DNA of 64,000 nucleotides from Candidatus Baltobacteraceae bacterium (lineage in GTDB: Bacteria; Vulcanimicrobiota; Vulcanimicrobiia; Vulcanimicrobiales; Vulcanimicrobiaceae). The position numbers were made by a program, and so were the translations under genes. The stretch's first letter is position 1, and each line of letters opens with the position of its first letter. Below the pieces are notes generated by a model. It had not been told where the DNA came from, did no database searches, and saw nothing but the letters and a program-made list of their open reading frames with translations. This document shows positions 23,018 through 62,009 of the stretch, piece by piece. The stretch is from assembly GCA_035502855.1 (NCBI GenBank), contig DATJTX010000021.1:62001-126000 (forward strand), given 5' to 3'.

Positions 23018-23365
23018 ATGGACGATTTTCGAGACGGCACATTATTGCGCATCTTCGTCGATGAGGCCGATCGGCACGGCCTGCAGCCGAGCTACACTGC
23101 GATTGTCGAGTTCTTGCGCAAACGCGGCGTCTCCGGTGCGACGGTTTTTCGCGGTATCGAGGGCTTCGGTGGCCACGGCGAGGTGCACATGGCACGAGTC
23201 TTCTCATGGCTTCCGAATTTGCCGATCCTCATCGAGGTGGTAGACGACTGGCCGGTGCTCGAGCCGCTCATCGGCGAGCTGGAGACGCTGATGGGCGAGG
23301 GGCTGCTTACGATCGAGGCGGCGCAGTACTTGCGAATCTCCAAACCAAAATCGACCCACGCCTAG
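23018..23365 (+). CDS. DUF190 (PII-like) protein, first copy
   Basis: A 115-residue protein with the DUF190 pattern: LLRIFVDEADRHGLQPSYTAIVEFL, then GVSGATVFRGIEGFGGHGEVH, LPILIEVVDD and a C-terminal acidic helix. The fold resembles PII. These proteins are frequent neighbours of fluoride channel genes, and their precise role is unknown to me. It begins 8 bases after the usher stop and lies just before the first fluoride riboswitch, which is downstream of it and therefore does not control it. A second copy lies at 38278. Confidence 0.88.
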   Translation: MDDFRDGTLLRIFVDEADRHGLQPSYTAIVEFLRKRGVSGATVFRGIEGFGGHGEVHMARVFSWLPNLPILIEVVDDWPVLEPLIGELETLMGEGLLTIEAAQYLRISKPKSTHA

Positions 23366-23416
23366 CATGTCTGGAACAGGAGCGGCATCCATCGCTGCGA
23401 ACGGAGCACTCGAAAA

Positions 23417-23490
23417 GGCGATGGAGCACCGCCTCTGACTGCCGCGGAGCGGCTGATGGCTCCTATTCGACGACACGTATCGAATGAGGA
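23417..23490 (+). promoter_or_regulatory. Fluoride riboswitch (crcB motif) A, probable translational switch
   Basis: Aptamer 23417-23465: stem GGCG/CGCC enclosing ATGGAGCAC, a second stem GCCGC-GGA-GCGGC, then CTGATGGCTCCTA. The loop GGAGC can pair with GCTCC to form the pseudoknot of this class. The 3' strand TCCTATTCGA can instead pair with TCGAATGAGGA (23480-23490), covering the likely ribosome binding site of the Nudix gene. Fluoride binding would free that site. Confidence 0.88.
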
Positions 23491-23499
23491 TGCAGGGCG

Positions 23500-23982
23500 A
23501 TGAACAATGCCGGTCCATACCGGGTGCGCGTTTCGGCCGCGGTGCTTCGGCCGGGAGACGAACTGCTGGTCGTTCGCGAATCGCACATGGCGCTCGCGGT
23601 CGTGAATCTCCCGGGCGGCGCGCCGCAGATAGGTGAGACCCTAGAGCGAGCGGTCGTCCGCGAGGTGCTCGAAGAAACCGGATACGAGGTCGTTCCGACC
23701 GAGATTGCGTTCGTCGCGGAAAAACGAAGCGATCGCTACTCGTCGTCGGCGTTGGAGGTATGCTTCTATGCGCGCATTGCCTCGCGGGCCCAGCGCGAGC
23801 CGGTGTCCGGTGACGGTGTGCAGGTGGTCGAGTGGCTTCCCTTGGGCCATGCCGACCTCCGGCGTCACTTGCCCCACACCGCGCTGTTCGCGCAGAGCAA
23901 ACGAGGGCGCTACATCGACCAGGCTTCGCGCGCCGAAACGGCCGGCTACGAGGGGGCCGGGGCGCGCGGCCGGAAGCCCTGA
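23500..23982 (+). CDS. Nudix hydrolase under a fluoride riboswitch
   Basis: A 160-residue hydrolase of nucleoside diphosphate-linked substrates. The Nudix box GGAPQIGETLERAVVREVLEETGYE (residues 39-63) has the required GxxxxxE...REuxEExG pattern, with the metal-binding Glu residues in place. The C-terminal 30 residues are basic and Gly-rich. The ATG at 23500 follows the fluoride riboswitch, whose alternative hairpin covers GAGGA. The substrate is unknown. A link to fluoride stress (for example clearing non-canonical or misused nucleotides) is inference from the switch. Confidence 0.88.
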   Translation: MNNAGPYRVRVSAAVLRPGDELLVVRESHMALAVVNLPGGAPQIGETLERAVVREVLEETGYEVVPTEIAFVAEKRSDRYSSSALEVCFYARIASRAQREPVSGDGVQVVEWLPLGHADLRRHLPHTALFAQSKRGRYIDQASRAETAGYEGAGARGRKP

Positions 23983-23995
23983 CATACGAGAATTC

Positions 23996-24066
23996 CGGCG
24001 ATGGGGCCCGCCGAAACCGCCGCGTTCGCGCGGCTGATGGCTCCTACTTCATAGAGAAAGTAGGAG
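23996..24066 (+). promoter_or_regulatory. Fluoride riboswitch (crcB motif) B, probable translational switch
   Basis: Aptamer 23996-24046: stem CGGCG/CGCCG around ATGGGGCC, then GAAACC, stem GCCGCG-TTCG-CGCGGC and CTGATGGCTCCTAC. This is close to the textbook consensus. CTCCTACTT (24041-24049) pairs perfectly with AAGTAGGAG (24058-24066), which contains the ribosome binding site of the following gene, so the OFF state should block translation. Confidence 0.93.
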
Positions 24067-24075
24067 ATGTCAGAC

Positions 24076-24414
24076 GTGAACGATCCGGCCGCGACGGACG
24101 CAGCCCTTGCCCAGCGGTTGCACGCGGCCGAGCAACGCCTCTCCGAGCGGAGCGAGCGGCTCTACGAACTCCAGCAACACTATTCGTCCGAGCATTTCGC
24201 CCTTCAAGAGAGCATGCGCAATCTGAAAATCGAGCGCATGCGCAATGCGGGAGCATACGCGCAGCTCGAGTGGACGATGAAGCGCGCGCGTGCGCTGCAG
24301 TCGAGAATCGGCGATCTCAAAAACCGGCTCCGTCGCTACGAAACGGTCGAAGACGAGGAGTTCGATACCGCGCCCATTTTGATCGAAGATAACGCCGCGC
24401 CTCAGAGCGACTGA
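24076..24414 (+). CDS. Small coiled-coil protein of the fluoride-controlled MutS-like operon
   Basis: About 112 residues, almost entirely heptad-like helix rich in Glu, Arg, Leu and Gln (AEQRLSERSERLYELQQHY, then KRARALQSRIGDLKNRLRRYE), ending in an acidic tail. The GTG at 24076 is preferred because GGAG lies nine bases upstream; an ATG at 24067 abuts that site too closely. The family is not recognised. It is the first gene after riboswitch B and is followed eight bases later by two MutS-like ATPase genes, so it may be their partner or adaptor. Confidence 0.7.
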   Translation: MNDPAATDAALAQRLHAAEQRLSERSERLYELQQHYSSEHFALQESMRNLKIERMRNAGAYAQLEWTMKRARALQSRIGDLKNRLRRYETVEDEEFDTAPILIEDNAAPQSD

Positions 24415-24422
24415 CGGGATGG

Positions 24423-25967
24423 ATGAGGTTTCATAGCATTCTTTTCCCAAGCGCTCGGGACGAGCCGGACGGTATTCCCGAAGCGCCGTCTTTCTTCACC
24501 GATCTGAATCTCGATCAAATCATCGACGCCATCGTATCCGCGAAAGAAGCGTACGGCCTCAAGCCGTTTTTTTACACGCATCTAAAAACCATCGAGGCGA
24601 TCCGCTACCGTCACGCGGTGATGCGGGACGTCGAAAAAACGAGGATCTACGCCCTCATCGCGGAGTTTGCCGCGACGATGGATGCGGTGCGTCAGTGGCT
24701 TGCCCTCGCGAAGAAATCGTCCTACACATACGAGCGCGCGCGCTGGAGGGTGGACGCCGCCGATCTCTACTGCGAAGCGGCGCGGCGACTCGTCGAGGGA
24801 CTCGGCGATTCGGACGTCGAGTCCGACGGGCTGATCGCCCTGCGGGATCATCTCCTCGCGTACTTGGAAGCGGACGGCTTTCGCGCGCTCTCGCGCGACG
24901 CCGCCTCGCTGCTGACGGACCTCGCGCAAATCGATTATCAGGTGCTGGTCGGCAGCGGCACCGTGACCGTGCGCAACGGCAATCACGAAGGCGACCTCGT
25001 GACGTCCGTTCAAGCGACGTTCGAACGCTTTCGGCAGGGTGCAACAAAGAGTTACCTATTGAAGTTTGCGCAGCGGACGTCGATGAACCACATCGAGGCG
25101 AAGGTTCTCGACTTCGTCGCACTGCTGCACCCGGACGTCTTTTCGCAGCTCGAACGTTTCGGTGAGACGTACGAGAGCTTCATCGACGAGTCCATCGCTC
25201 GATTCGAGCGCGAAATCCAGTTCTACGTCGCGTGCACGGACTATCATCGGGCATTCGAACGCGCCGGGCTGCCGACGTGCTACCCGCTGGTGGACGCGAA
25301 CGGCAAAGAAGTTCGCGCCGAGGACGTTTTCGATCTGGCGCTAGCCCAGCGTCTCGTCGCTTCAGACGCTCGGGTGGTGAGGAACGACTTCTCCTTGAGC
25401 GGACCGGAGCGCGTTTTCGTCGTCTCCGGTCCAAACCAAGGAGGCAAGACGACGTTTGCGCGGACGTTCGGTCAGATACACTATCTCGCCGCGTTGGGTT
25501 GTCGCGTGGCGGGAAGGAGGGCCGCAACGTTTCTCTTCGATGCGATCTTCACCCACTTCGAGCGCGAGGAAGACCCATCGGCCTTGCGGGGAAAGCTGGA
25601 AGACGACGTCATCCGTATCCATGAAATTCTGGAGCGGGCCACGCCGAACAGCATCATCATCCTCAACGAAATCTTCGCGTCGACGACCGCATACGACGCG
25701 AGCACGCTGGCACGGCGGATCATGAGCAAGATACTCGAACTCGATACGTTGGGCGTCTGCGTGACGTTTATCGACGAGCTGGCTTCTCTGAGCGAGAAGA
25801 CCGTGAGCATCGTCAGTCTCGTCAACCCGGAGAACCCCGACGTGCGGACGTACAAGCTGGCACGGCGCCCGGCCGACGGTCTCGCGTACGCGGTCTCGCT
25901 GGCCGAAAAATACGGGCTCACGTACGATCGCCTCCACCGGCGCCTCACGATCGTCGAGCGGCCATGA
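24423..25967 (+). CDS. MutS-like ABC ATPase, first of a pair
   Basis: A 514-residue protein with the lever/clamp helices and C-terminal ATPase of MutS but without the N-terminal mismatch-reading and connector domains. The core domain runs to about 320. Walker A is SGPNQGGKTTFA (near 335-346). Walker B is IIILNEIFAST (near 413), with Asp replaced by Asn-Glu as in some MutS-related paralogues. Thr-Thr after Walker A fits ABC-type nucleotide binding. MutS-like genes are, as I recall, among those previously seen with fluoride riboswitches. It overlaps the second MutS-like gene by four bases (ATGA). A role as a heterodimer with that product is inference. Confidence 0.85.
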   Translation: MRFHSILFPSARDEPDGIPEAPSFFTDLNLDQIIDAIVSAKEAYGLKPFFYTHLKTIEAIRYRHAVMRDVEKTRIYALIAEFAATMDAVRQWLALAKKSSYTYERARWRVDAADLYCEAARRLVEGLGDSDVESDGLIALRDHLLAYLEADGFRALSRDAASLLTDLAQIDYQVLVGSGTVTVRNGNHEGDLVTSVQATFERFRQGATKSYLLKFAQRTSMNHIEAKVLDFVALLHPDVFSQLERFGETYESFIDESIARFEREIQFYVACTDYHRAFERAGLPTCYPLVDANGKEVRAEDVFDLALAQRLVASDARVVRNDFSLSGPERVFVVSGPNQGGKTTFARTFGQIHYLAALGCRVAGRRAATFLFDAIFTHFEREEDPSALRGKLEDDVIRIHEILERATPNSIIILNEIFASTTAYDASTLARRIMSKILELDTLGVCVTFIDELASLSEKTVSIVSLVNPENPDVRTYKLARRPADGLAYAVSLAEKYGLTYDRLHRRLTIVERP

Positions 25968-27493
25968 AGACCTTCCTGATGTACCGCGACCGCGACGTCG
26001 ACATGCAGCAGGCGCTTCCGTGGAACGCCGGCGATCTTATCCAGGATCTGGGACTCGAGCGGTTGTTCGCGGTGATGGCCTCGGCCGATCGCTTTCTGCC
26101 GGAGGTCGCGAAGCGATCCGTTTTGTGCGGGCTCCCCGGCGTGGACTCGATCGTCTATCGTCAGGACGTCCTGCGTGATTGTCTCGCGAATCCCGGCGTC
26201 ATTCGGGAAATCTACGCGCTGGCGGAAGAAGCGATCAAAAACGAGGGCCACTACTTCTGGGGATTGCGCACGCGAAACGTGGGCTCGATCTTGCGCCGCG
26301 GCACCGAGTTGCTGCAGATGTTCCTGGGCATCTTGCGGCGATTGCGCGCTCTCGCCGAGCGGCATCGGAACGACTTTACGTCCGATGGCTTCGAGCGTTT
26401 CTTCACGATGCTCGCAAGCGAGCTCGACGACGACTATCTGGCGTTGGCCGAGGACCACCTCCGCCGCGTCGAATTTCGCGGCGGCATCCTGATGAGCGCG
26501 CGCCTCGGGCGGGGAAACCAAGGCGACGATTACGTGCTTCGCGACTACGAGCCGAGGCTGCCGCGCTGGTTCGAGAGGTTGTTCGCGCCGAAGGAATCGG
26601 GCTACACGTATCGGCTGCACCCGCGCGACGAAAGCGGAATGCGGGCGCTCTCGGAACTCGGAGACCGCGGCATCAATCTCGTCGCCGACGCACTCGCCCA
26701 ATCCGCCGACCACATCCTCGCCTTCTTCACGACGCTGCGCTACGAGACCGGCTTTTACGTGGCGTGCGTCAATCTCTACGAGGCGCTCGCGGCCAAGAAC
26801 GAGCCCGTGTGCTTTCCACTGCTTTCGGACGCGGGCACCGGGATTCACGATTTCACCGGATTGTATGACGTGTGTCTGTCGCTCTCGGCGCAGCAGCGCG
26901 TCGTTGGGAACGACTGCAACGCCGACGGCAAGGCGATGATCCTGGTGACCGGAGCCAACCAGGGCGGGAAGTCCACCTTCCTGCGCAGTGTCGGAACCTC
27001 GCAGCTGATGATGGAATGCGGCATGTTCGTGCCGGCGATATCGTTGCGTGCGAGCCTGTGCAGCGGCCTGTTCACTCATTACAAGCGCGAGGAAGACGTC
27101 GAGATGAAAAGCGGAAAATTCGACGAGGAGCTTCGTCGTATGAGCGATCTCACCGGTCACCTGAGACCGAACGCGCTCGTGTTGTTCAACGAGTCGTTCG
27201 CCGCGACCAACGACCGGGAAGGCTCGGAGATCGCTCGTCAAATCGCCGAAGCATTGGTTGATTCCGGAATGCGCGTCTGCTTCGTGACGCACTTGTACGA
27301 GTTCGCCCATCGAATTTGGGAGGAGCGCGCCGCGCAGACGCGGTTCCTACGCGCGGAACGCGGTCAGGAAGGGAAACGCACGTTTCGACTGGTCGAAGGC
27401 GAGCCGTTGCCGACGAGCTACGGCGAGGACGTCTACCGGCGCGTGTTCGCCGGCGAGAAGCGGGGTTGCGCGAAGCAGCGGCAGCCCGGGTGA
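25964..27493 (+). CDS. MutS-like ABC ATPase, second of a pair
   Basis: A 509-residue paralogue of the preceding protein with the same layout: helical core, then ATPase domain with TGANQGGKSTFLRSVG (near 328-343), the FVPA segment, YKREEDVEMKSGKFDEELRR and Walker B LVLFNESFAATND (near 405). Both paralogues carry Asn-Glu at Walker B, suggesting a conserved active form. No mismatch-recognition or nuclease (Smr) domain is present. Translational coupling to the first paralogue suggests a stable complex. The 3' end overlaps the convergent gene at 27433 by 61 bp. Confidence 0.85.
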   Translation: MKTFLMYRDRDVDMQQALPWNAGDLIQDLGLERLFAVMASADRFLPEVAKRSVLCGLPGVDSIVYRQDVLRDCLANPGVIREIYALAEEAIKNEGHYFWGLRTRNVGSILRRGTELLQMFLGILRRLRALAERHRNDFTSDGFERFFTMLASELDDDYLALAEDHLRRVEFRGGILMSARLGRGNQGDDYVLRDYEPRLPRWFERLFAPKESGYTYRLHPRDESGMRALSELGDRGINLVADALAQSADHILAFFTTLRYETGFYVACVNLYEALAAKNEPVCFPLLSDAGTGIHDFTGLYDVCLSLSAQQRVVGNDCNADGKAMILVTGANQGGKSTFLRSVGTSQLMMECGMFVPAISLRASLCSGLFTHYKREEDVEMKSGKFDEELRRMSDLTGHLRPNALVLFNESFAATNDREGSEIARQIAEALVDSGMRVCFVTHLYEFAHRIWEERAAQTRFLRAERGQEGKRTFRLVEGEPLPTSYGEDVYRRVFAGEKRGCAKQRQPG

Positions 27494-28146
27494 AACGGTG
27501 GTATCCACTCCGGCGTGCGCGGGCGGATGCCCCACTGTTCTTCGCACCGCGGGCAGGCCTCGCTGTAACCGTTCACCTCGAAGCCGCTTGGTGTGCGGTC
27601 TCGGGCTACGCGATCGGCGTGGGCGAGCATGCTCAACCAATGGGCGATGATTTCGATCAGACTGAGATCGACCTCGAGCGCTTCCGATGAAACGATCGGG
27701 TTGAGCCGAAAGATATTCGCTCGAACGCCGGTGCACAATCCGGCAGCGCAGAGCTCGTCGACCGCGCCGTGCACCCTCCGTCGGTCTAACCCGGTCGTAG
27801 ATGGAGCGAAGACCACGTCCCGTTCCAGCGTCAACGGGGCGGCACGCGTGCGCACGAGCCGAGCGTTCAGCGAAAGCGATCGCCAAAGGTTGCTGTTCCA
27901 ATCGCCGGAGGGGCCGAAAGCAAACGTCCAAAGGTGCGGCCGCTCTTGGATCGTTTCCAAGTAGAAGCGATAGGTCATCAGGGGCTCGTACCACAGATTT
28001 TTGCCGAGCAGAGCGGCTGCGACGTCCTGGCTCGTGAACGGCATCTCGACGCTGCGTTCGAGAACGCCGCGGGTGATTCGCTCGTCCGCCGACAGCAGGT
28101 CCAACGCTTCGGAAAAGCGGTTACGAGAATGCTGCAAGAACCGCAT
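27433..28146 (-). CDS. Zinc-motif protein at end of fluoride-controlled GTPase operon
   Basis: About 237 residues from ATG 28146 (an earlier start would give a basic, non-conserved extension). The N-terminal part is helical and contains MPFTSQDVAAALLGKNLWYEPL. The C-terminus has ACPRCEEQW followed by FHPGCRCFAQP, a C-x2-C plus H-P-x-C-R-C arrangement that probably binds zinc. HPxCRC is also the hallmark of the phage MuF-type C-terminal domain, so a distant link is possible. The function is unknown. It overlaps the upstream GTPase gene by 26 bp and, convergently, the second MutS-like gene by 61 bp. Confidence 0.6.
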   Translation of the reverse strand: MRFLQHSRNRFSEALDLLSADERITRGVLERSVEMPFTSQDVAAALLGKNLWYEPLMTYRFYLETIQERPHLWTFAFGPSGDWNSNLWRSLSLNARLVRTRAAPLTLERDVVFAPSTTGLDRRRVHGAVDELCAAGLCTGVRANIFRLNPIVSSEALEVDLSLIEIIAHWLSMLAHADRVARDRTPSGFEVNGYSEACPRCEEQWGIRPRTPEWIPPFHPGCRCFAQPRFSPANTRR

Positions 28147-29779
28147 CCAAGATCCGCTCGTCGTGCCGGATGCGCTCCACCTGCGCGTGCAGCTTCGATT
28201 CGTCTCCCACGTCGCTCGCGCTCTCGAAGGCATCCTCGACGACACGGCGCGCCGCGCTGAGGCGTTCGCGCACGAGCCCGGCGTTGGCTAAGCGCCATTC
28301 GAGCAGATAGCGTACTGCTGCCGAACGCACCCGGCCCTTCGAACGGTCGAGAAGTTGGTTCGCAAGTGCGGCAAATCGTTTGCGCAGAGCGTGAAAACGC
28401 AGCGGTCCCGGAAGCGCCGCGAGCATCCCGCCGGTCACGAGCTCCAATCCCGTGGTTGGAACGGGACCGCTCATCCGCGTCGCCGCTTCTCGTGCGCCGA
28501 ACTCGATGCGGCTCGCGTCGTCGTCCTCGGGTATCTCCAGTCCTAGCGCCTTGCTGCCGGCTTCGGCAAAGCGCTTCTCCAATTCCGTCAGCACACGTAG
28601 CGTGGATGCTTTCCGTTTTTCGACTCGCAGCTCGAGCGCCGACGACACCTGCGCGGACCACTCCGCCTCGCACTCCGCCACGCACGCGTGAAGCGCACGT
28701 TCGCCGCGCCCCGGCCCTTCCTCCGCGTATCGGTCGATTTGGGCCGAAACGGTGGAGATGCCGCCCTGCAAAAGCGTACCGAGAAGCGCATCCACGCAGA
28801 CCAGCTCTTCGTTTGGAAATTGTTCGATCGCGCGGACGAGATCGGCTCCGCGCTCTTCGATCTCGGTGGCCAACTCGGAGAATAGCGCACGGGCGCGCTC
28901 GCGCTCGGCAGCCGGAAGCATCGCCGCAGCGCAACGGAGTTGCATTGCGCGCCGGATGCGCGAAGCCGCGCGCTGCACGCGCCGCGTGCGGGACCGCCGC
29001 GCGAGAATCCCGCCGCTCTCGGCGAGCGTACGCACGATCGTCTCGCGCAGCTCTACGATCCGCTCGTCGGAGTCCCTCGCGTTCACCGCGAAGAGAGCGA
29101 GGCCCGCAGGCGTCCCTTCATCGACGGTGCGCTGCGTGAACGCGAGGATCTCGGCCTCCGCGCCGCGCACGAGGTCGATCTTCGCGACGACCACGAACAC
29201 GCGCTCGGCCAGCTCCGTGAGCTCGCGGAGAAACAAGCGCTCCTCTCCCGTGATCGGCGGCTCGGGACCGGTGACGAACAGGGCGAGATCGACCCGCTCG
29301 CTCGCCTCGCGCGCGGTCTGGGTATTATGGGTGAGCGTCGAACCGATTCCCGGCGTGTCGATGAACGTGATGTCGTGCAGCAGCGGCAACGGTAGCGTCA
29401 CGTCGACGTACGCGACGCCGAGATGATTGCGCGGATTGCATTCTTCGGTGACGTAGGACGCGACGTTTTCAAGTTTCGTCCGTTCGGAGCGGCCATCGAA
29501 GAAGTGAACGGTCAGTCCGCGTTCGCCGAAGACGACGCGGGTCGTTACGCCGGTCAGAGGCAAACGTCCCGTCGGCAAGACGTTCTCCCCGAGGAGCGCG
29601 TTCAGTAACGTGCTCTTGCCGCGCTTGAACTGGCCGAGCACCGCGACGGCTGCGGTTTCCCTCGTTGCCTGATCGACGATCGAGTCGACGTCCGCGCGCA
29701 AGAGATCGTCGCCGTATGCGATGGCCAGATGCGCAAGCTCGTCGAGTTCGGTCGCGCGCTCCGGTTTCCAACCGGGCAT
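28121..29779 (-). CDS. Dynamin-like GTPase under a fluoride riboswitch
   Basis: 552 residues from ATG 29779, which overlaps the upstream stop (TGATG). The GTPase domain has P-loop GQFKRGKSTLLNALLG, switch Thr in LPLTGVTT, DxPG in FIDTPGIGS and an AKID motif for guanine binding. The GPEPPITGEE and long C-terminal helical stalk (about 280-540) fit bacterial dynamin-like proteins, which remodel membranes. A hydrophobic patch TTGLELVTGGMLAALPGPL in the stalk tip region could be a membrane paddle. Controlled by riboswitch D through the preceding gene. A role in membrane protection during fluoride or acid stress is inference. Confidence 0.85.
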   Translation of the reverse strand: MPGWKPERATELDELAHLAIAYGDDLLRADVDSIVDQATRETAAVAVLGQFKRGKSTLLNALLGENVLPTGRLPLTGVTTRVVFGERGLTVHFFDGRSERTKLENVASYVTEECNPRNHLGVAYVDVTLPLPLLHDITFIDTPGIGSTLTHNTQTAREASERVDLALFVTGPEPPITGEERLFLRELTELAERVFVVVAKIDLVRGAEAEILAFTQRTVDEGTPAGLALFAVNARDSDERIVELRETIVRTLAESGGILARRSRTRRVQRAASRIRRAMQLRCAAAMLPAAERERARALFSELATEIEERGADLVRAIEQFPNEELVCVDALLGTLLQGGISTVSAQIDRYAEEGPGRGERALHACVAECEAEWSAQVSSALELRVEKRKASTLRVLTELEKRFAEAGSKALGLEIPEDDDASRIEFGAREAATRMSGPVPTTGLELVTGGMLAALPGPLRFHALRKRFAALANQLLDRSKGRVRSAAVRYLLEWRLANAGLVRERLSAARRVVEDAFESASDVGDESKLHAQVERIRHDERILDAVLAAFS

Positions 29780-30351
29780 CACGACGACCGTGCGCACAGG
29801 GCCAGACCGATGCGGGTCTTGACGATCCCCAAACGATCCAGACCGTGTGCCAGAACGCGATCGAGTGCGGCCTGTAGGCCGGCGCCGATTTCGTCGCGGA
29901 CGGCTCCTCGCAGTTCCTCGATCCAATCGTCGACCTCGGACCGATGCGCGGGCGGTTCGGGAATTCGCATTCCCGCGACATCGAAGCGCCCGATCGTAAA
30001 CATTCTGGGCAGAAGGCGCTTCGCGGCCACCAGATGCGTCGCTCGTATCGCGTCCGCGATCCGGGTCTCGGATTCTGCCAGCTCGCTCGTGTAGATTTTG
30101 AAGCGGGCGCGAGCGCGCAATTGGACGTTGCTGCACGCCGTTCGTGCGCAGCGCATGGCGATGCGCTCGAAGGTCTCGCGGCCAAGGTTGGCGACATGCG
30201 CTTCGCGCCGGGCGGCGCCGAGCGGCCGCGCGAGGAACCGCTCCATTCTCGCGGCGTCGTCGGCGCATCCGGCGACCAATCGCACGCGGGCTTCCGCTTC
30301 GACACTGCGCAGCGCCGCGAAGAGGGCTTCGAACCGCACCGAGTCGGACAT
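29779..30351 (-). CDS. Helical protein, first gene of the fluoride-controlled GTPase operon
   Basis: 190 residues from ATG 30351, located directly after the riboswitch terminator. AGGAG, part of the terminator 3' arm, lies about ten bases upstream and serves as ribosome binding site. The protein is Ala/Arg-rich and helical with no recognised family; Cys in CARTACS near residue 70 might bind metal. One-base overlap with the dynamin-like gene suggests that the two products work together, perhaps as the small partner of the GTPase. Confidence 0.7.
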   Translation of the reverse strand: MSDSVRFEALFAALRSVEAEARVRLVAGCADDAARMERFLARPLGAARREAHVANLGRETFERIAMRCARTACSNVQLRARARFKIYTSELAESETRIADAIRATHLVAAKRLLPRMFTIGRFDVAGMRIPEPPAHRSEVDDWIEELRGAVRDEIGAGLQAALDRVLAHGLDRLGIVKTRIGLALCARSS

Positions 30352-30354
30352 ATG

Positions 30355-30392
30355 AAAAAAACTCCTGATCACTTGACGCATCCGATCAGGAG
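30355..30392 (-). terminator. Riboswitch-controlled intrinsic terminator (switch D)
   Basis: On the minus strand CTCCTGATC (30392-30384) pairs with GATCAGGAG (30370-30362), followed by seven U (30361-30355). The 5' arm contains the CTCC needed for the fluoride aptamer pseudoknot, so ligand binding and termination are mutually exclusive: a transcriptional ON switch. Confidence 0.9.
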
Positions 30393-30437
30393 CCATCAGC
30401 CGCAGCCGGCGGTTTCGCGGGGGCGCTCCATCCCCGT
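30388..30437 (-). promoter_or_regulatory. Fluoride riboswitch (crcB motif) D, transcriptional ON switch
   Basis: Minus strand: stem GGGG/CCCC around ATGGAGCG, then GCGAAACC, stem GCCG-GCTG-CGGC and CTGATGGCTCCTGA. GGAGC in the loop pairs with GCTCC at the 3' end. It is followed by a terminator that reuses CTCC. It controls the GTPase operon at 27433-30351. Confidence 0.92.
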
Positions 30438-30439
30438 CA

Positions 30440-30636
30440 ACGATATTTTCTGGAATCCGAGCAGAACGCCCTCTCTTCCAGACCGGTGCCGGCCGCGCGT
30501 CGGACTATCATCGAGTTCGACGAACCTTCGGCATTTGCGGGTCGCGTACGCAACGTCGGCGATCGACGATGATCCCGGGAGAATCTTTGGAAGGTGAGCG
30601 TTCTGACGCGTGAGAAGGAGGGCCCAAAGAGACCAC
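30440..30636. other. Divergent control region between riboswitches C and D
   Basis: About 200 bases with no gene. It must hold the promoters of both fluoride-controlled transcripts. I could not assign clear -35/-10 pairs. TTGCG and CGCAA flank nine bases near 30535, a possible but weak dyad. Confidence 0.35.
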
Positions 30637-30637
30637 G

Positions 30638-30683
30638 GGAGCGATGGAGCTCGCTTACCGCCCGGACGGGCTGATGGCTCCTA
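30638..30683 (+). promoter_or_regulatory. Fluoride riboswitch (crcB motif) C, transcriptional ON switch
   Basis: Stem AGCG/CGCT around ATGGAGCT, then TTACC, stem GCCCG-GA-CGGGC and CTGATGGCTCCTAC. The loop GGAGC pairs with GCTCC. The first stem differs from the other three copies by compensating base changes. A terminator that reuses the 3' strand follows. Confidence 0.92.
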
Positions 30684-30717
30684 CTCACTGCTTTGCGTTT
30701 GAGTATGGGAGCTTTTT
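30677..30717 (+). terminator. Riboswitch-controlled intrinsic terminator (switch C)
   Basis: GCTCCTACTCA (30677-30687) pairs with TGAGTATGGGAGC (30700-30712) and is followed by five U. It lies between the aptamer and the hydrogenase-4-like operon and competes with the pseudoknot. Confidence 0.88.
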
Positions 30718-30758: not shown

Positions 30759-31709
30759 ATGACGCAGTCGATCGCCCTTAACCTCCTCCAAATCGCCTTC
30801 GTCCTGCTGCTCTCCCCGCTTTTTGCCGGCATCTTGGCGCGATGCAAGGAACTCGTGCAGTCGAAGCGCGGGCCGAGCATCTTTCAGCCCTACCGTGACC
30901 TGCGCAAATTGTTCGGCAAGGACGAACGCATTTCCGAGGACAGCAGTTGGATCTTCCGGAGCGCCCCCTACTTCGTCTTTATCGTTCCCCTCATCGTTAC
31001 GCTGCTGATTCCGGTCCTGACCGATTTTCCGCTGTTCTTCGCGTTCGCCGGCGACATGGTGGGCGCGGGCTTCATCCTGGCGATTTCCGGAATGTTCTTC
31101 ACGCTCGCGGCGATCGACGGCGGCAACCCGTACGGCGCCATGGGCGCATCGCGCACGCGCATGGTCGGCTTCCTCGCCGAGCCCGTGATCATCATCGTAC
31201 TCTTCACGGTCTCGTTCGTCGCGAACTCGACGATTCCGTACATCGTGCAGCAACATTGGGTCCACCCCATTGCGAACTTCTTCGCTCCCTCACACGTGCT
31301 GCTGCTCATCGCGTTCTTCATGGTGCTGCTCGCCGAGACGGGAAGACTCCCGGTCGACAATCCGAGCGGCCATTTCGAACTTGCGATGGTCGACGAATCG
31401 AAGGCGCTCGAATTCTCGGGCCGCTCGGCGGCGCTGATCAAGTACGGCGGATACATGAAGTTCGTGGTGCTCTCGATCGTGTTTCTCAACGTCCTCACCA
31501 CACCATGGGGCCTCGCAACGAACGGATCGCCGGCGGGCCTCGCGCTCGCGATCGCCCTCGTCGCGGTCAAAATTCTCGCGCTGATCGCCGTCATCGTCGC
31601 GGTGGAGTCGTCCTACGCAAAGCTGCGGCTCTTCCGTATTTCGGAATTCTTGGCTGCCGCATTCGTGGTCTCCGTCACGGCGATGATCACCGAGATTCTG
31701 CACCTATGA
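30759..31709 (+). CDS. Hydrogenase-4/formate-hydrogenlyase-like membrane subunit, NuoH/HyfC family
   Basis: A 316-residue integral membrane protein, the quinone-site/proton-channel subunit homologous to complex I NuoH and HyfC/HycD. Eight or so hydrophobic helices are visible. Family landmarks are SKRGPSIFQPYRDLRKLFGKD near residue 35, the loop AIDGGNPYGAMGASRTRM and the conserved acidic loop AETGRLPVDNPSGHFELAMVDE (near 195). It is the first gene of a six-gene complex operon plus DUF190, directly downstream of fluoride riboswitch C, and overlaps the next gene by four bases. Confidence 0.9.
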   Translation: MTQSIALNLLQIAFVLLLSPLFAGILARCKELVQSKRGPSIFQPYRDLRKLFGKDERISEDSSWIFRSAPYFVFIVPLIVTLLIPVLTDFPLFFAFAGDMVGAGFILAISGMFFTLAAIDGGNPYGAMGASRTRMVGFLAEPVIIIVLFTVSFVANSTIPYIVQQHWVHPIANFFAPSHVLLLIAFFMVLLAETGRLPVDNPSGHFELAMVDESKALEFSGRSAALIKYGGYMKFVVLSIVFLNVLTTPWGLATNGSPAGLALAIALVAVKILALIAVIVAVESSYAKLRLFRISEFLAAAFVVSVTAMITEILHL

Positions 31710-32371
31710 CGGCATTGCTGCTCGAACTCAACGCGCTGGTGCTCGGGCTCTTCATCATCAGCACGATCGCAATGACGGTGACGCGTCAGATCGGCGCCTG
31801 CATGCAGATCTTCATCGTGCAGTCATTGCTGCTCGCCGCTTCTGCGTTTCTGCTCGGCGCGGCGCCCTTCTCGTGGCATTTGTTTGCACTCGGTTGCGTA
31901 ACCGTGGCGTCGAAAGCCGTCATCATCCCGTGGCTGCTGCGCCGGCTGGTGCCCGGCGAAATCGACCGGCGGCGCGAACTCTCACAAGCGATCGACGTTC
32001 CGACGACGCTGCTCATCGCTCTTGGTCTTACGTTCGCAGGGTATGCGTTTGCCCAGCATCTCGTGCATGCCGCTGACAATCTTTCGCCCGGAAACATTTC
32101 GATGGGCTTCGCCGCTCTGCTGGTGGGATTGCTGCTGCTGGCGGTGCGCATCGAAGCCGTGCCGCAGCTCTTGGGCCTTCTCGCGATGGAGAATGCCGCA
32201 TTTCTGGCGGGCATCGCTATTGCGCCGGACTTCCCGCTCATCGCCGAGCTCGCGATCGCATTCGACGTTCCGCTGCTCGCCTTCATCGTCGCACTGCTTG
32301 CGCGGATTGCGTACCGCAGCATGGGAACGACGCAAGTCGGTGGGCTCGCTTCGCTGAAGGAGCGGCAATGA
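31706..32371 (+). CDS. Hydrogenase-4 component E-like membrane protein (HyfE/NuoK-related)
   Basis: 221 residues from the ATG overlapping the upstream stop (ATGA). Seven or so hydrophobic helices. The N-terminal part with TVTRQIGACMQIFIVQSLLLA and the later stretch LLAMENAAFLAGIA resemble HyfE, whose C-terminal half corresponds to NuoK with its conserved Glu in a membrane helix (here in AMENAA). It is probably part of the proton-translocating arm of the complex. It overlaps the following gene by four bases. Confidence 0.85.
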   Translation: MTALLLELNALVLGLFIISTIAMTVTRQIGACMQIFIVQSLLLAASAFLLGAAPFSWHLFALGCVTVASKAVIIPWLLRRLVPGEIDRRRELSQAIDVPTTLLIALGLTFAGYAFAQHLVHAADNLSPGNISMGFAALLVGLLLLAVRIEAVPQLLGLLAMENAAFLAGIAIAPDFPLIAELAIAFDVPLLAFIVALLARIAYRSMGTTQVGGLASLKERQ

Positions 32372-33804
32372 CGCTGCTCGCGATTCCCGTGATCGCGCTC
32401 GCCGCCGCTCTCTGGTGCGCGATTCCACGCAGCGCTCGCGCCGCGCCGGCGGTTACACTCGGCGCGGCGGTGGTTGCGTTCGCGCTGTCCACCCAGGTGC
32501 TCTGGGCGCTCAGGTTCGGGGCAACGCTCGCGCCTGCGCGCGGCTGGGTCGAAACGGACGCTCTCGGCGCATTCCTGCTCGTGCTGATTGCATTCGTCTA
32601 TATGACGGCCGCGCTCTACTCGTGGGGCTATCTGAACGCCGAGGGAACGACGGCGCGCCGCGTCCGTCTCTACCATGCGAACTTCAATTTGTTCGCGTTC
32701 TCGATGTTTTGCATTCCGCTGGTGAGCGAACTCGGCCTGGTCTGGATCTTCGTCGAGCTGACGACGCTGCTCTCGGTGCTGCTCGTGAGCTACGCGCTCA
32801 CGCCCGAAGCGGTGGAAGCGGCATGGAAGTACATGATTCTCACGCTGCTCGGCGCGACGACTGCCGTGCTCGGCGTGCTCGTCCTCTTCTGGGCTCTGCA
32901 CACCACGGGCAGCACCGACTTCACCTGGGCCGGTTTGAGGGCGGCGGCTCCCCACATGCCGCAGGCGCTGCTCGGTGCGGCCTTCGTCCTGTTGCTCGTC
33001 GGATACGGAGCGAAGATCGGGCTGGTGCCGCTTCACACCTGGCTGCCCGACGCGCACAGTCAGGCGCCCTCGCCGGTTTGCGCGATGCTTTCGGGCATCG
33101 AAACCAGCGCGGTACTGTACGTGCTGCTGCGCCTTCGCAACGTGTTCGCGGGGGACCCGGCACTGCACGTCGGCACATGGTTCGCCCTCGCCGGTTTGAT
33201 CTCGGTCGGAGTCGCTGCCCTCCTCATCGTGCAGGCACGCGATTACAAGCGCTTGTTCGCGTTCTCGACCGTGGAACACATGGGAATCATGCTCACGGCG
33301 GCCAGCATACTCACGCCGTTCGGAGATACGGCGACACTGTGGCAGATGCTCGCACACGCCGTGACCAAGTCGTTTTGTTTCTACGCTGCCGGCATCGCGG
33401 TCATCGTGACGGGTTCGCGTGAGATCGCCGACGTGCGCGGATTGCTCGGCATCAGCCGCGTCGCGAGTGCGGGACTGCTCGTCGGAGGTCTGGCGATCGG
33501 CGGCGCTCCCCCGATGGCCGTGTTCCCGAGCGAACTGGCGATCGTGCGAGCGGCGCTGCAGGCGCACGGATACGCCGTCGCGTCATTGCTGGTGCTCTTC
33601 ATCGTTGTCGCGTTTTTCGGCGTCATGTGGCACGTGACGTCGATGCTCGCCGGGCCACCCGTCACCTCCGCTCGCCATCGGGTGCCGGTCACGTGCGCGC
33701 TGGCCCTCGCGGTGGCGGCGATTCCCGTCTTCGTGCTGGGCCTGTGGATTCCGAGCGGTTTATCGCAAGCGCTCGAAAGCGCCGCGAAGGTTCTGGGAAC
33801 GTAG
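32368..33804 (+). CDS. Antiporter-like membrane subunit (HyfF/NuoN type)
   Basis: A 478-residue protein with about 14 membrane helices, homologous to Mrp antiporter and complex I pump subunits. The helix-5 Glu lies in VWIFVELTTLLSVLLVSYAL. The TM7 Lys lies in LVGYGAKIGLVPLHTWLPDAHSQAPSPVCA, and a His/Lys pair occurs in the AHAVTKSFCFYAAG segment. These are the residues needed for proton movement. The short form matches HyfF. It is separated by three bases from the catalytic-subunit gene. Confidence 0.9.
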   Translation: MTLLAIPVIALAAALWCAIPRSARAAPAVTLGAAVVAFALSTQVLWALRFGATLAPARGWVETDALGAFLLVLIAFVYMTAALYSWGYLNAEGTTARRVRLYHANFNLFAFSMFCIPLVSELGLVWIFVELTTLLSVLLVSYALTPEAVEAAWKYMILTLLGATTAVLGVLVLFWALHTTGSTDFTWAGLRAAAPHMPQALLGAAFVLLLVGYGAKIGLVPLHTWLPDAHSQAPSPVCAMLSGIETSAVLYVLLRLRNVFAGDPALHVGTWFALAGLISVGVAALLIVQARDYKRLFAFSTVEHMGIMLTAASILTPFGDTATLWQMLAHAVTKSFCFYAAGIAVIVTGSREIADVRGLLGISRVASAGLLVGGLAIGGAPPMAVFPSELAIVRAALQAHGYAVASLLVLFIVVAFFGVMWHVTSMLAGPPVTSARHRVPVTCALALAVAAIPVFVLGLWIPSGLSQALESAAKVLGT

Positions 33805-33807
33805 GCG

Positions 33808-35367
33808 ATGCTGACCGAATTCGCGGAACTGATGCGCTCGCTCTGGCCGACGCTCGAATGGCGCATCGTCGATCGAACGATTAGCGTCGACGCCGACGCT
33901 CGCTACCTGCGTGCGATCGTGAAGCTTCTCCACGCGCAGCATTGGCGGATCGGGACCATCGTCGCACGCGAGCGCGGACGCGGATTGGAGGTGCGCTACG
34001 TTCTGTACGCGAGCGACTATCCCGGCTGGACGGAGCTGCGCGTGGCCGTCGACCCGGTCGAGCGAGCGCTTCCGAGTCTGACGAACGTCGTCATCGCATC
34101 GGACTGGTTCGAACGAGAAATCGAGGACCTGTTCTCGATTCGCTTTCTCGAGCATCCCCGGCTCGGGGACTTCGTGCTGCACGACGACCAGTGGGCCGAA
34201 AACCTCGGGCTCATGCGCCCGCACGTGCGCTCGGCCGAGGACGTGCCCGTGCACCGTCGCGAGTGGCATCCCAAACGCGTTCTCGAAGAAGAAGGAGCAT
34301 TCGTGATGACGGTTGGTCCCGTCTACTCGGGTGAAGCGGAGTCGGCACTCTTTCTTCTCGAGACCGTCGGCGAAGACGTCGTGCGCGCGGTTCCGCGGTT
34401 GTTCTTCAAGTATCGCGCGATCGAGAAGATCGCCGAAGGGCGCACCATGCACGACGTGCTGCTGCTGGCCGAACGCTGCAGCGGAACCTCCGCGATCGGC
34501 AACGCCCTCGCCTATTGCCAAGCCGTGGAAGCGGCGCTCGGCGTCCGCGTGCCGGCGCGTGCGTCGTCGCTGCGCGCGTTCTTCGCCGAGCTGGAACGGC
34601 TGCGTCACCACATGACGTCGATCCGCGAGATATGCGCATCGACCGCGCTGACCGTCGCCGAAAGCCAAGCGATCTGGATCGAGGAACAGCTGCTGCGTAT
34701 CAGCGGCTCGCTCGCCGGACACCGCTACCTCTTCGGGGTGCTCGCGATCGGCGGCGTCACGCGTGACTACGATCGCACGATGCTGCGCTCCGCGCTTACC
34801 GCGACCGAGGCGCTCGAGCACCGGGTCGAGTCGCTGCGAGCCGCCTTGGAGACCTCGAGCAGTTTCCTCGATCGGATCGAACAGATCGGCATCGTTTCGG
34901 AGCAGGCTGCGCACGCGTTCGAAATCGTGGGACCGTTTGCGCGCGCAAGCGGCGTGGCCTTGGACATGCGAAGGGTGCAGCCCTACGGTGCGTACGGCGG
35001 CATTCGATTCGACGTGCCGACCGAAAAGGACGGCGACGGCTACGCGCGATTACGCGTGCTCTTCGCGGAGATGACGCAATCGCTCCGCATCATGCGGGCG
35101 CTGGCGGAAGACTTTCCCGAAGGGGCGGTGCTGGGGGAGGTCGGTGCGCGAGGTTGCCATGCCGTCGGCTGGAGTGAAGCGCCGCGCGGCGCGTCGGTGC
35201 AGTGGGTCGAGCTGAACGATGACGGAACCGTCGCGCGATACCGGTTGACGCCGCCTTCGTTCAGGAATTGGCACGGGTTCCACGTCGCGACCGAAGACTT
35301 TGCGTTCCAGGACTTCCCGATCGTGCTTGCCACGCTCGATCTTTCCGTCGCGGAGAACGACCGCTGA
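33808..35367 (+). CDS. Hydrogenase-like large subunit (NuoC-NuoD fusion) lacking the NiFe cysteines
   Basis: 519 residues. Residues 1-150 are a NuoC-like domain (DWFEREIEDLFSIRFLEHP); about 170-519 are NuoD/HycE-like (FKYRAIEKIAEGRT, NALAYCQAVE, PYGAYGG). In active group 4 hydrogenases four Cys bind NiFe. Here the first motif reads AERCSGTS (Cys224 only) and the C-terminal DPCxxC is replaced by LDLSVAEND. The subunit therefore cannot hold a normal NiFe site and, like NuoD, is not a hydrogenase. It may couple a redox reaction or conformational change to ion pumping. The stop overlaps the next ATG (TGATG). Confidence 0.88.
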   Translation: MLTEFAELMRSLWPTLEWRIVDRTISVDADARYLRAIVKLLHAQHWRIGTIVARERGRGLEVRYVLYASDYPGWTELRVAVDPVERALPSLTNVVIASDWFEREIEDLFSIRFLEHPRLGDFVLHDDQWAENLGLMRPHVRSAEDVPVHRREWHPKRVLEEEGAFVMTVGPVYSGEAESALFLLETVGEDVVRAVPRLFFKYRAIEKIAEGRTMHDVLLLAERCSGTSAIGNALAYCQAVEAALGVRVPARASSLRAFFAELERLRHHMTSIREICASTALTVAESQAIWIEEQLLRISGSLAGHRYLFGVLAIGGVTRDYDRTMLRSALTATEALEHRVESLRAALETSSSFLDRIEQIGIVSEQAAHAFEIVGPFARASGVALDMRRVQPYGAYGGIRFDVPTEKDGDGYARLRVLFAEMTQSLRIMRALAEDFPEGAVLGEVGARGCHAVGWSEAPRGASVQWVELNDDGTVARYRLTPPSFRNWHGFHVATEDFAFQDFPIVLATLDLSVAENDR

Positions 35368-36089
35368 TGAAGAACTGGTTTCTGCGCGGACTCCTAGCGG
35401 GCGTTCGCACCGAACGGCCTCCGGACGGAGGCGACGTCGCGACCGCGCTCGCATCCGGCTTGCCGAAAACGACGCAGAGCACGCAAGAACGCGCGCTGGC
35501 GCTGGCGCAGGGTTGCCCGACCGGCGCAATTGAAGCGGACGCGGCGATCGCCCGTGTGAACCAGGACCGCTGCGTTCTCTGCATGCGCTGCAAAGGTGAG
35601 GGAGGAACGCAGTGGCGGCACGACGTGACTTGGGCGCATCCGCCGGATGTGAACGCGCGCGAACCGCTGGCCGGCCCCTTTACGCGCTCGCTGAATGTAC
35701 GCGTCGTTGACGCGGGTGATTGCGGTTCGTGTCTGAACGAGCTCGCGCAGATGAACGGCCCCTCCTACAACCTCCATCGGTTCGGTATCTTTATCACGCC
35801 GACGCCGCGTCAGGCGGACGTGCTGCTGGTCGTCGGGCCGGCGACGCGTCAGATGCACGATGCGCTGCGCGCAGCATACGAGGCTATGCCGGAACCCAAA
35901 CGGGTGGTGGCGGTCGGTGTGTGCGCCGCGACCGGCGGTGTATTCGGCCCGTCGCTGATGTCCTCGGGAGGAATCGCCGAGGTGATCCCCGTCGACCTGG
36001 TCGTTCCCGGCTGCCCGCCGCCGCCGCTCGCGATCATCGACGCGCTTCGCTTCGTCTGCGGCCAGTCACCGCGGGTTTCGCGCCCATGA
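35367..36089 (+). CDS. NuoB/HyfI-like iron-sulfur subunit with an N-terminal half ferredoxin
   Basis: 240 residues. The C-terminal two thirds are NuoB-like, with Cys119 and Cys122 (DAGDCGSCLNEL), Cys186 (GVCAATGG) and Cys216 (VPGCPPPP), the four ligands of the proximal 4Fe-4S cluster. The N-terminal part has Cys50 (GCPTGAI) and CVLCMRC (Cys69, 72, 75), enough for one further 4Fe-4S cluster, resembling a shortened HyfH fused to HyfI. The iron-sulfur wire is thus preserved although the NiFe site of the partner is lost. ATG 35367 overlaps the upstream stop. Confidence 0.88.
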   Translation: MKNWFLRGLLAGVRTERPPDGGDVATALASGLPKTTQSTQERALALAQGCPTGAIEADAAIARVNQDRCVLCMRCKGEGGTQWRHDVTWAHPPDVNAREPLAGPFTRSLNVRVVDAGDCGSCLNELAQMNGPSYNLHRFGIFITPTPRQADVLLVVGPATRQMHDALRAAYEAMPEPKRVVAVGVCAATGGVFGPSLMSSGGIAEVIPVDLVVPGCPPPPLAIIDALRFVCGQSPRVSRP

Positions 36090-38212
36090 CATCGCTCGTT
36101 TTGACGGTCGCGGCACTTGCGCTGTGCGCCGCCGGCGCCGTCGTCGCGCTTGCGCTGGCGGAACGATACGCATCGCGCGTCCTTGCGGTCACCGGCTGTA
36201 CGGCGGCAACGCTCTCGTTCATCGGCGGCGCGATCGCTCTTGCCGCCGGGCCGAGCGGCGATGTCGCACTGTGGTCGTTGCCGGTCGTCGGCACGATCAC
36301 GATCGGCACGACGGCGCTCGGGTCGTGGTTCGCCTGCGTGGCCTCGCTCGTGTACGTCCCGACCTCGCTCTTCACCCTCCGGTATCTCGAACGGTACGCC
36401 GGCGAATATTCGCTGCGCGCTTTCACCGTGTGGTACTGCGTCCTGCTCGCCGGGATCATCGGACTCTTCGTCTGCGCCGACGTGACGTCGTTCTTCATCG
36501 TCTGGGAGATCATTGCAATCGCGAGCGCGTTGCTCGTCGCATTCGAATGGCGCCGAGCCGGCAACGCTCGCGCTGCGTTCGTGATGCTCGGCATGAGCGA
36601 AGCCGGCACCATGGCCGCGCTTCTCGGTGTCCTGCTCGCACGCGGGGATTCGCTCTCGTTTGCGGCGGCCGCGCCTCCGCTGAGCGCCCCCTTGTCGTGG
36701 GCCGTGTTTCTGCTCGCATTCTTCGGATTCGGCGTGAAGGCCGGGCTCTTGCCCATCAACTCGTGGTTGCCCCGCGCGCATCCCCTTGCGCCCGGCAACG
36801 TGTCCGCGCTGCTTTCCGGCGTGATCCTCAACGTCGGCGTCTACGGAATCGTGCTGGTCGATACGGTGCTTGCGCCCTCGCGCATCCCGGCTCAGGGTCT
36901 CGTGGTCATGGCCGTCGGTGCCGCGTCTGCTTTGGTCGGCATCCTCTACGCGACGATCGAGGACGATCTCAAGGCAATGCTCGCGTATAGTTCGATCGAG
37001 AACATCGGGATCGTCCTGACGGCGTTCGGGGCAGCCTTCGTGTTCGCGGCCGAACGTCAGCCGCTCTTCGCCGGGATCGGTTTCGCCGCCGGGCTGTATC
37101 ATCTGACCAATCACTCCGCGTACAAAGGGCTGCTCTTTTTAGGGGCGGCGACGGTCGACACGAAGTTCGGAACACGGTCGATGAACGCGCTCGGCGGTAT
37201 TATCCGCGCGCTGCCGATCACGACCGCGTTGTTCTTCGTCGGTGTGCTCGCGATATCGGCCATTCCGCCGTTGAACGGCTTCGTGAGCGAGTGGATGACG
37301 TTCCAGGCTCTGCTGCGCAGCGTGCAGCTCGGTCCCTTGACGTTCCGTGTCATTTTCGCACTTTGCGGCGCGACGCTGGCGCTCACCGCGGCACTCACGG
37401 TAACGTGCTTCGTGAAGGCGTTCGGCATGTCGTTTCTCGGGCTGCAGCGTACGCCGCGGCCGAAGCCGGCGGAAGCATCGCGCAGCATGCTCCTCGGGAT
37501 GGGGCTGCTCGCGCTCGAGTGCGTGCTGCTCGGCACGTTGCCCACGTACGTACTGCCGCTCATCGGCCGTGCATCGAAGACGGCGTTCGGTTCGGACGTC
37601 GTCACCGGCACGCTCGTTCCACCGTTCTTCAAACCAGGCGCTCCGCCGAACCCGCTCCCGCCGGACTTCGTTGCATCCTTCCACGCGCTCGGCGCACAGA
37701 TCGGGCAGTGGCTCCCGGGCAGAGGACTCGTCGTGATGCTGCGCGGAGGCGAGACGAACCCGGTCGTCTTCGCGATGTCGACGACCTATCTGTGCGTAAT
37801 CATCATCGTCTTGTTGCTCGCCACGTACGGCGTGGTTCGGTTCATCACGCGGGCGCGGCGCGCCGAGCGTTCGAACGTGTGGGCCGGCGGGCAGAAATCG
37901 CTCTCGGCGGAGATGACGTACACGGCGACGGGCTTCTCGAACCCGGTCCGCGTCATTTTCGATGCGATCTTTAACCCGACCGAGGTTGAGAACCGGCGCG
38001 AGACGATTCACGAACATTTCCGGGCGGCGATCCTGCGCGAACGTGAGGATGTGTTCCTCGCCGATCGTTTGCTCAGTGCCCCGATCGCTTCAGCCGTGCG
38101 CGCCGCCGCGTCATTCCTGGCGCGAATGCACCACGGAAGACTCTCGGCCTATGTCGGATACGCGCTCGGAACACTCTTGGTCGCGCTCGCTGTCGTATCG
38201 GTGATGAACTAG
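36086..38212 (+). CDS. Large antiporter-like membrane subunit (HyfB/NuoL type)
   Basis: 708 residues from the ATG that overlaps the upstream stop (ATGA). About 15-16 membrane helices. The TM5 Glu is in FFIVWEIIAIASALLVAFEW, the TM7 Lys in FGFGVKAGLLPINSWLPRAHP, and further Lys/His are in NHSAYKGLLFLGA. The C-terminal 150 residues have the HyfB-specific cytoplasmic extension VWAGGQKSLSAEMTYTATGF and FNPTEVE. With the HyfF-like subunit it gives the complex two pump modules. Codon use is like its neighbours. Confidence 0.92.
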   Translation: MTSLVLTVAALALCAAGAVVALALAERYASRVLAVTGCTAATLSFIGGAIALAAGPSGDVALWSLPVVGTITIGTTALGSWFACVASLVYVPTSLFTLRYLERYAGEYSLRAFTVWYCVLLAGIIGLFVCADVTSFFIVWEIIAIASALLVAFEWRRAGNARAAFVMLGMSEAGTMAALLGVLLARGDSLSFAAAAPPLSAPLSWAVFLLAFFGFGVKAGLLPINSWLPRAHPLAPGNVSALLSGVILNVGVYGIVLVDTVLAPSRIPAQGLVVMAVGAASALVGILYATIEDDLKAMLAYSSIENIGIVLTAFGAAFVFAAERQPLFAGIGFAAGLYHLTNHSAYKGLLFLGAATVDTKFGTRSMNALGGIIRALPITTALFFVGVLAISAIPPLNGFVSEWMTFQALLRSVQLGPLTFRVIFALCGATLALTAALTVTCFVKAFGMSFLGLQRTPRPKPAEASRSMLLGMGLLALECVLLGTLPTYVLPLIGRASKTAFGSDVVTGTLVPPFFKPGAPPNPLPPDFVASFHALGAQIGQWLPGRGLVVMLRGGETNPVVFAMSTTYLCVIIIVLLLATYGVVRFITRARRAERSNVWAGGQKSLSAEMTYTATGFSNPVRVIFDAIFNPTEVENRRETIHEHFRAAILREREDVFLADRLLSAPIASAVRAAASFLARMHHGRLSAYVGYALGTLLVALAVVSVMN

Positions 38213-61942: not shown

Positions 61943-62009
61943 TCGTCTTGCCCCCGGCGCCGGATCGGACGCGGCCGGGCGGCCTGAGGTCACGGCGAGG
62001 TCGTCAAGA

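Follow-up and report, generated by a model that had tools for sequence, protein, structure and literature searches.

A dynamin-like GTPase gene behind a fluoride riboswitch in a multi-switch island of Vulcanimicrobiales

The described system closest to the locus analysed here is the regulon of the fluoride riboswitch (crcB motif, RF01734). Genes associated with the motif include mutS, formate hydrogen lyase genes and genes that serve the transport of K+ or Cl-, according to the available part of Weinberg et al. 2010 (PMC2864571). The accessible sections of a 2024 review (PMC11139923) add exporters, antiporters, pyrophosphatase, HAD proteins and enolase; as known defences against fluoride they describe its export, pH homeostasis and ways to replace or bypass the enzymes that it inhibits. 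The word 'dynamin' is absent from the available parts of both texts and from those of a 2020 review. Our literature search returned no paper joining a fluoride riboswitch to a dynamin or a GTPase, and for crcB together with dynamin it returned only papers titled on eukaryotic cells; the riboswitch-associated genes of Baker et al. 2012, reportedly the main paper on this subject, lie outside the comparison.

Among dynamin-like proteins (DLPs) of solved structure, the closest relatives of the GTPase studied here are BDLP1 (cyanobacterial) and IniA (mycobacterial). Both align with it over the G domain and the start of the helical trunk (approximately 390 profile positions), although identity is low, and we know of no fluoride switch controlling either of them. 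Bacillus DynA, which acts in membrane surveillance, resembles the GTPase in being a bacterial, stress-linked DLP, but it is two-headed whereas the GTPase is single-headed; DynA and IniA are both reported at membrane lesions (PMC8844932, available portion).

The locus lies in a window of 64,000 nucleotides (positions 62,001 to 126,000 of contig DATJTX010000021.1, assembly GCA_035502855.1), to which all coordinates refer. Taken together with its counterparts in relatives, it shares with the RF01734 regulon the aptamer, the overlapping terminator and members such as mutS, formate-hydrogenlyase-like, HAD, Na+/H+ exchanger and CrcB genes, and differs from it in that a dynamin-like GTPase and two unknown families, termed HEL and CH, are regular members. 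What is new is the dynamin-like GTPase family within a known kind of regulon.

Switch D and its operon

Switch D (30380..30444, minus strand) matches RF01734 with 46.4 bits, above the Rfam gathering cut-off of 34, and an E value of 1.1e-9; the alignment spans model positions 1-64, i.e. the whole model, with 0 pairs marked as non-standard. A predicted transcription terminator, consisting of a hairpin and U7 (30361..30393, minus strand, ends approximate; -16.2 kcal/mol), overlaps the aptamer. The 5' arm of its hairpin is the conserved 3' end of the aptamer, and the 3' arm carries AGGAG, the likely Shine-Dalgarno sequence of HEL, about 10 bases before the ATG at 30351. In the predicted fold the terminator/Shine-Dalgarno hairpin starts inside the aptamer, which would place the expression platform under control of the aptamer's 3' strand, while the predicted fold of the whole leader is not exceptional (z -1.35 versus shuffles). 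Several relatives' leaders have no U-run, but an AGGAG-like sequence complementary to the aptamer's CTCCT lies near the start codon. Because aptamer and hairpin compete for one strand and AGGAG lies in the hairpin's 3' arm, fluoride binding should prevent termination and free the ribosome-binding site, making D an ON switch. Fluoride control of the operon is strongly inferred.

Downstream of switch D, consecutive genes overlap in the order HEL, dynamin-like GTPase, CH. All three can be aligned with relatives from other genomes (17 rows for the GTPase, 13 for HEL, alignment A3, and 12 for CH) and are regarded as real genes on this ground. In this respect the initial annotation, which had placed three genes under switch D and its terminator, is borne out. 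HEL, a helical protein of 190 amino acids (29779..30351, minus strand), matches no Pfam, NCBIfam or PADLOC family; the longest open reading frame begins within the aptamer, and the start was corrected to the ATG at 30351. CH, a Cys/His protein of 237 amino acids (27433..28146, minus strand), starts at approximately 28146, overlaps the GTPase gene by 26 nt and carries the C-terminal motif CxxC...PPFHPxCRCxAQPR. The pattern CxxC...WG...PFHPxCRC is kept in 12 of 12 rows, its Cys and His residues being invariant. Profile searches for CH and HEL covered the genomes of the order and, with a local profile, 17 loci. HEL is present in 15 and CH in 13 of the 103 genomes of the order, with 15 of 16 HEL copies no more than 2 kb, and 14 of 14 CH copies within 7 kb, from a fluoride switch.

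The GTPase (DLP1; 552 amino acids, 28121..29779, minus strand) matches Dynamin_N with an E value of 3.1e-25. Its ATG was corrected to 29779, leaving a 1-nt overlap with HEL (TGATG). The G1-G4 motifs (P-loop, switch Thr, DTPG, K-x-D) are conserved across the 17 rows, in which relatives are 29-64% identical to the window's protein. Compared with PDB entries, its profile matches BDLP1 (7.6e-29), IniA (8.4e-28) and also the GTP-binding protein pair of entry 5OWV. Hydropathy analysis detected no transmembrane helix in the GTPase and a modest hydrophobic, paddle-like patch around residues 442-466. AlphaFold models of the GTPase with one homolog allowed (mean pLDDT 37.5) and of CH alone (pLDDT 34.5) were unusable.

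A multi-switch island

Operon D is one unit of a larger multi-switch fluoride island that, judged from sequence comparison, is common to several phyla, an arrangement which the initial annotation of this operon had missed. Four fluoride aptamers were identified by cmscan in the window: besides D, switch A (23408..23472, plus strand; 42.1 bits), switch B (23988..24053, plus strand; 54.7 bits) and switch C (30631..30690, plus strand; 39.8 bits), which is divergent from D and has a terminator of its own (-15.6 kcal/mol). Switch A precedes a Nudix hydrolase gene (23500..23982, plus strand; NUDIX 3.4e-16), and nearby lies a gene for a DUF190 protein (23018..23365, plus strand; 2.9e-28), a family that often adjoins CrcB in the islands examined. 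The operon under switch B (24067..27493, plus strand) encodes a 115-aa coiled-coil-like protein followed by two MutS-domain-V ATPases (MutS_V 2.3e-16 and 2.7e-19), and its genes have orthologs in the islands of most relatives. Across several phyla, fluoride islands contain counterparts of the ATPase pair (24423-27493) with 45-53% identity. A secondary match to KamC, a reactivase ATPase, falls below its cut-off but hints that the pair may have a function other than DNA repair. Under switch C lie the genes of a hydrogenase/complex-I-like membrane complex (HyfC, E, F/NuoM, G, I and NuoL-like; 30759..38212, plus strand; NADHdh 1.8e-32, Complex1_49kDa 3.7e-44). Its HyfG-like subunit (33808-35367) has only four cysteines and no CxxC at the RC motif or at the end, which makes a NiFe site improbable in this complex; presumably it is of the Ehr type.

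The source genome (3.33 Mb in 39 contigs), of a lineage assigned to Eremiobacterota/Vulcanimicrobiota, has seven fluoride switches, and no CrcB (PF02537) was found in it; among 14 GTPase-bearing genomes, CrcB is present in only 4. Elsewhere in the source genome, a 103-aa hydrophobic protein without a Pfam family, a candidate membrane protein, is encoded behind its own fluoride switch (L033:11619-11927, on contig C35). Gene maps of relatives show one gene set, not complete in every genome, reshuffled among several switches: the GTPase, HEL, CH, the 115-aa coiled-coil-like protein, the MutS-domain-V pair, Nudix, metallophosphoesterase, HAD, MFS, DUF190, CrcB and the Hyf-like complex. In one relative (G074) an unassigned stretch of about 1.2 kb separates HEL from the GTPase gene.

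Linkage of short dynamin-like GTPases to fluoride switches

The 103 genomes of the order were searched for the GTPase and for RF01734. Short GTPases are of two types, DLP1 and DLP2, and in the latter the trunk is replaced at the C-terminus by a Cys/His region resembling DUF6062. In G105, G107 and G070 this type of region is a separate gene after DLP1, and a similar gene is located at the end of a viral contig (L038:5064-6656, L042:5018-6073 and L074:1-1764 for these genes). One or the other type occurs in 16 genomes, all 16 of which also have a switch above the cut-off. Expressed the other way round, a short DLP is found in 16 of 38 genomes with such a switch, the remaining 22 having the switch only, versus 0 of 65 genomes without one. 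Short DLPs were located at 20 sites, one of them in G119, a genome of another class of the phylum, and 19 in the order; 19 of the 20 lie no more than 10 kb from a fluoride switch; the sole exception is G106, in which the DLP and HEL are located on a 3.2-kb contig devoid of a switch and were counted as misses. By contrast, none of the 48 loci of other DLPs, which are mostly about 900 aa long and in several cases have two G-domain hits, comes as close as 10 kb; the smallest distance to a switch is 10.8 kb (Fisher 6e-16 for short versus other DLPs, a value that ignores relatedness). Before the 48 were counted, weak hits (E ~1e-5 to 1e-3, most with open frames of 460-610 aa; e.g. G044:C3, G051:C1, G064:C15, G099, G061, G023, G084, G094:C12, G089, G085 and G001:C58) had been set aside, as had additional fragments of genes already on the list and a hit in G146, which does not belong to the order. 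As a measure of chance, the 10-kb surroundings of all fluoride switches make up about 1.5% of the source genome.

A same-strand aptamer is present upstream of DLP1 in 14 of 14 loci with readable upstream sequence, 11 above the Rfam cut-off and 3 below it (G006, G087, G107), and upstream of DLP2 in 3 of 3 loci with upstream sequence. The initial proposal of a dynamin-like GTPase under fluoride control is thereby well supported at the level of sequence. It had named a search for dynamin-like genes behind crcB-motif RNAs of other genomes as a check, and an association unique to this genome as a refutation; such genes were found at the loci just given and, outside the order, in another class and on Burkholderia plasmids, and the association is therefore not unique to this genome.

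In the representative of the other class, G119, the genome of 7.4 Mb contains no more than two fluoride switches, one directly before the gene for a 611-aa DLP (42% identical over the G domain) and the other before an adjoining Na+/H+ exchanger gene. No MutS or Hyf-like genes occur in the stretch examined; since its two switches serve only the DLP and the exchanger, this DLP needs neither beside it. G119 is the only one of five genomes of its class with this DLP.

A plasmid collection contained 11 records with DLP relatives. Fluoride switches were detected in three of eight plasmid regions examined (six of the 11 DLP records and two others), namely those of Lichenicola cladoniae, Burkholderia cenocepacia and B. 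multivorans, and in none of the other five, from Anabaena, Paenibacillus, Kovacikia, Pseudomonas and Moraxella. Both Burkholderia regions have the order switch, hypothetical gene, dynamin gene; the 206-aa hypothetical gene was considered as a HEL relative and rejected by profile comparison. These islands (L088 and L089) are dense, with ten and seven fluoride switches in a stretch of some 30 kb, and also hold MutS-like genes, DUF190, a Hyf-like complex, and two enolase and two pyrophosphatase genes each. The MutS-like pair of B. multivorans is 45-47% identical to that of the window, and the island plasmid of B. cenocepacia is typed as conjugative. On the Lichenicola plasmid, which has no MutS or Hyf-like genes in the stretch examined, a DLP2-type gene and a switch-crcB pair are transcribed divergently, and the switch faces crcB, not the DLP gene. 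Six further MutS-containing plasmid islands were examined (of 48 records found), all with switches; because none of the six has a DLP, the GTPase is an accessory of fluoride islands and not a core gene.

A scan of viral contigs for the GTPase yielded one truncated DLP2-type gene (IMGVR_UViG_3300032053_018296), whose upstream sequence is missing there, and no fluoride switch was found in the 5.8 kb of this contig. In a G-domain tree DLP1 groups with the protein of G119 (98/96) and DLP2 with that of Lichenicola (100/99), the Burkholderia pair standing apart. Two or more separate origins of fluoride-linked DLPs are not claimed, a single group not being rejected (p-AU 0.31) in a topology test that left out the IMG/VR row.

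Possible role of the GTPase

HF enters cells, and cytoplasmic fluoride then rises. Together with Mg2+, fluoride would stabilise aptamer D and withhold its 3' strand from the terminator/anti-Shine-Dalgarno hairpin, and once this hairpin cannot form, transcription and translation of HEL, the GTPase and CH would proceed, as expected from the known riboswitch class. As a single-headed bacterial DLP without a transmembrane helix, the GTPase would bind to the inner membrane, where its GTP-driven assembly might repair or reshape leaky patches and limit the leak of HF and H+, comparable with what is reported of DynA and IniA at damaged membranes. Other products of the island, its antiporters, exporters and repair-type ATPases, would work alongside the GTPase, and HEL and CH would be lineage-specific partners. 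We assign a probability of roughly 0.5 to operon D being a fluoride-induced, membrane-acting module. The role in membrane sealing or fission suggested in the initial proposal would be the likeliest by family membership. Because DynA and IniA are reported at membrane lesions and the partner in G119 is an exchanger, we prefer a function in shielding the inner membrane from leak or from acidification driven by HF. Weak points of a membrane role are the missing transmembrane helix, the modest patch and the poor structural model, and a DLP2 with a DUF6062-like Cys/His region instead of the trunk appears odd for a membrane-remodelling protein. Against a fluoride-induced module speak the leader fold, which does not stand out from shuffles, the orientation of the Lichenicola switch and the fact that most fluoride islands have no DLP.

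A dynamin-like GTPase behind the fluoride switches of many genera and of Burkholderia plasmids would mean that cells also defend their membrane against fluoride, and bacterial dynamins, whose physiological triggers are mostly unclear, would gain a clean chemical inducer. In G119 the switch and the GTPase gene can be separated from the other island genes. Recurrence in relatives and on Burkholderia plasmids suggests that some bacteria respond to fluoride in part by remodelling their membranes, which has so far gone unrecognised. More tentatively, and with some doubt on our side, we speculate that GTP-driven membrane remodelling is a separate line of defence against fluoride, in addition to export, pH control and enzyme replacement, and that it is used most by bacteria without Fluc channels, with DLPs, some of them carrying zinc-type Cys/His tails, in fluoride regulons of at least two phyla.

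The main rival, which we consider rather unlikely, is that the GTPase serves as an assembly or reactivation factor for island products such as the MutS-like ATPase pair or the Hyf-like complex, with HEL and CH as adaptors. Its operon partners are indeed often the MutS-like pair (G044; for DLP2, G074, G094 and G107) or Cys/His proteins (CH, C22/DUF6062), DLP2 fuses the GTPase to a DUF6062-like region that follows DLP1 as a separate gene elsewhere, and the KamC match of the MutS-like partners, although below its cut-off, is to a reactivase. However, the DLPs of G119 and Lichenicola have neither MutS nor Hyf-like genes in the stretch examined, and in many islands MutS or the complex occurs without a DLP. 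The linkage to MutS-domain-V proteins could instead point to work on the nucleoid or in DNA repair together with the MutS-like pair, reminiscent of the clamp-binding dynamin-like protein CrfC; there is a weak NCBIfam match to CrfC (8e-5), and DNA damage is suggested for crcB-motif genes in the available part of Weinberg et al. 2010 (PMC2864571). Yet the MutS-like proteins match domain V only, the CrfC match is far below its cut-off, and DLPs are found without MutS, which makes such a role improbable.

Just as improbable is a GTPase that contributes nothing to fluoride tolerance and is linked to the switches only because the whole gene cluster is transferred as one piece. Plasmids do carry island genes, and related genomes cannot be counted as independent, but the DLP stays behind its switch while gene order is reshuffled between genera, DLP1 relatives are as little as 29% and at most 64% identical to the window's protein, and G119 has only the DLP and the exchanger and no island. 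That operon D is an anti-phage defence cassette which landed by chance in a fluoride island is hardly credible in view of the near-absolute linkage to fluoride switches across many genera, even though the PADLOC profile of LeoA matches the GTPase (5.3e-13), an anti-phage effect of DynA is described in the available part of PMC8844932, and one DLP2 relative is on a viral contig. Among eight proteins scanned, just two GTPases gave clear defence-profile matches; the LeoA and LeoBC profiles match GTPases only and neither HEL nor CH, i.e. the LeoB/LeoC partners of LeoA-type defence were not found.

With respect to the third gene of the operon, the Cys/His C-terminal motif of CH resembles the tail of phage MuF-type head morphogenesis proteins. 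The family phrog_4728 is matched by 11 of the 12 members at E values from 1.4e-4 to 0.5, weakly and with the C-terminal tail only; the 12 members have no MuF domain in Pfam and no phage context, and CH has no match in the plasmid collection or the viral contigs. As the CH and MutS-like genes converge with a 61-nt overlap (27433-27493), these two fluoride-controlled transcripts may be mutually antisense at their ends. In one copy (L032:16067-17110) CH is naturally fused to DUF190, which links it to a family found beside CrcB.
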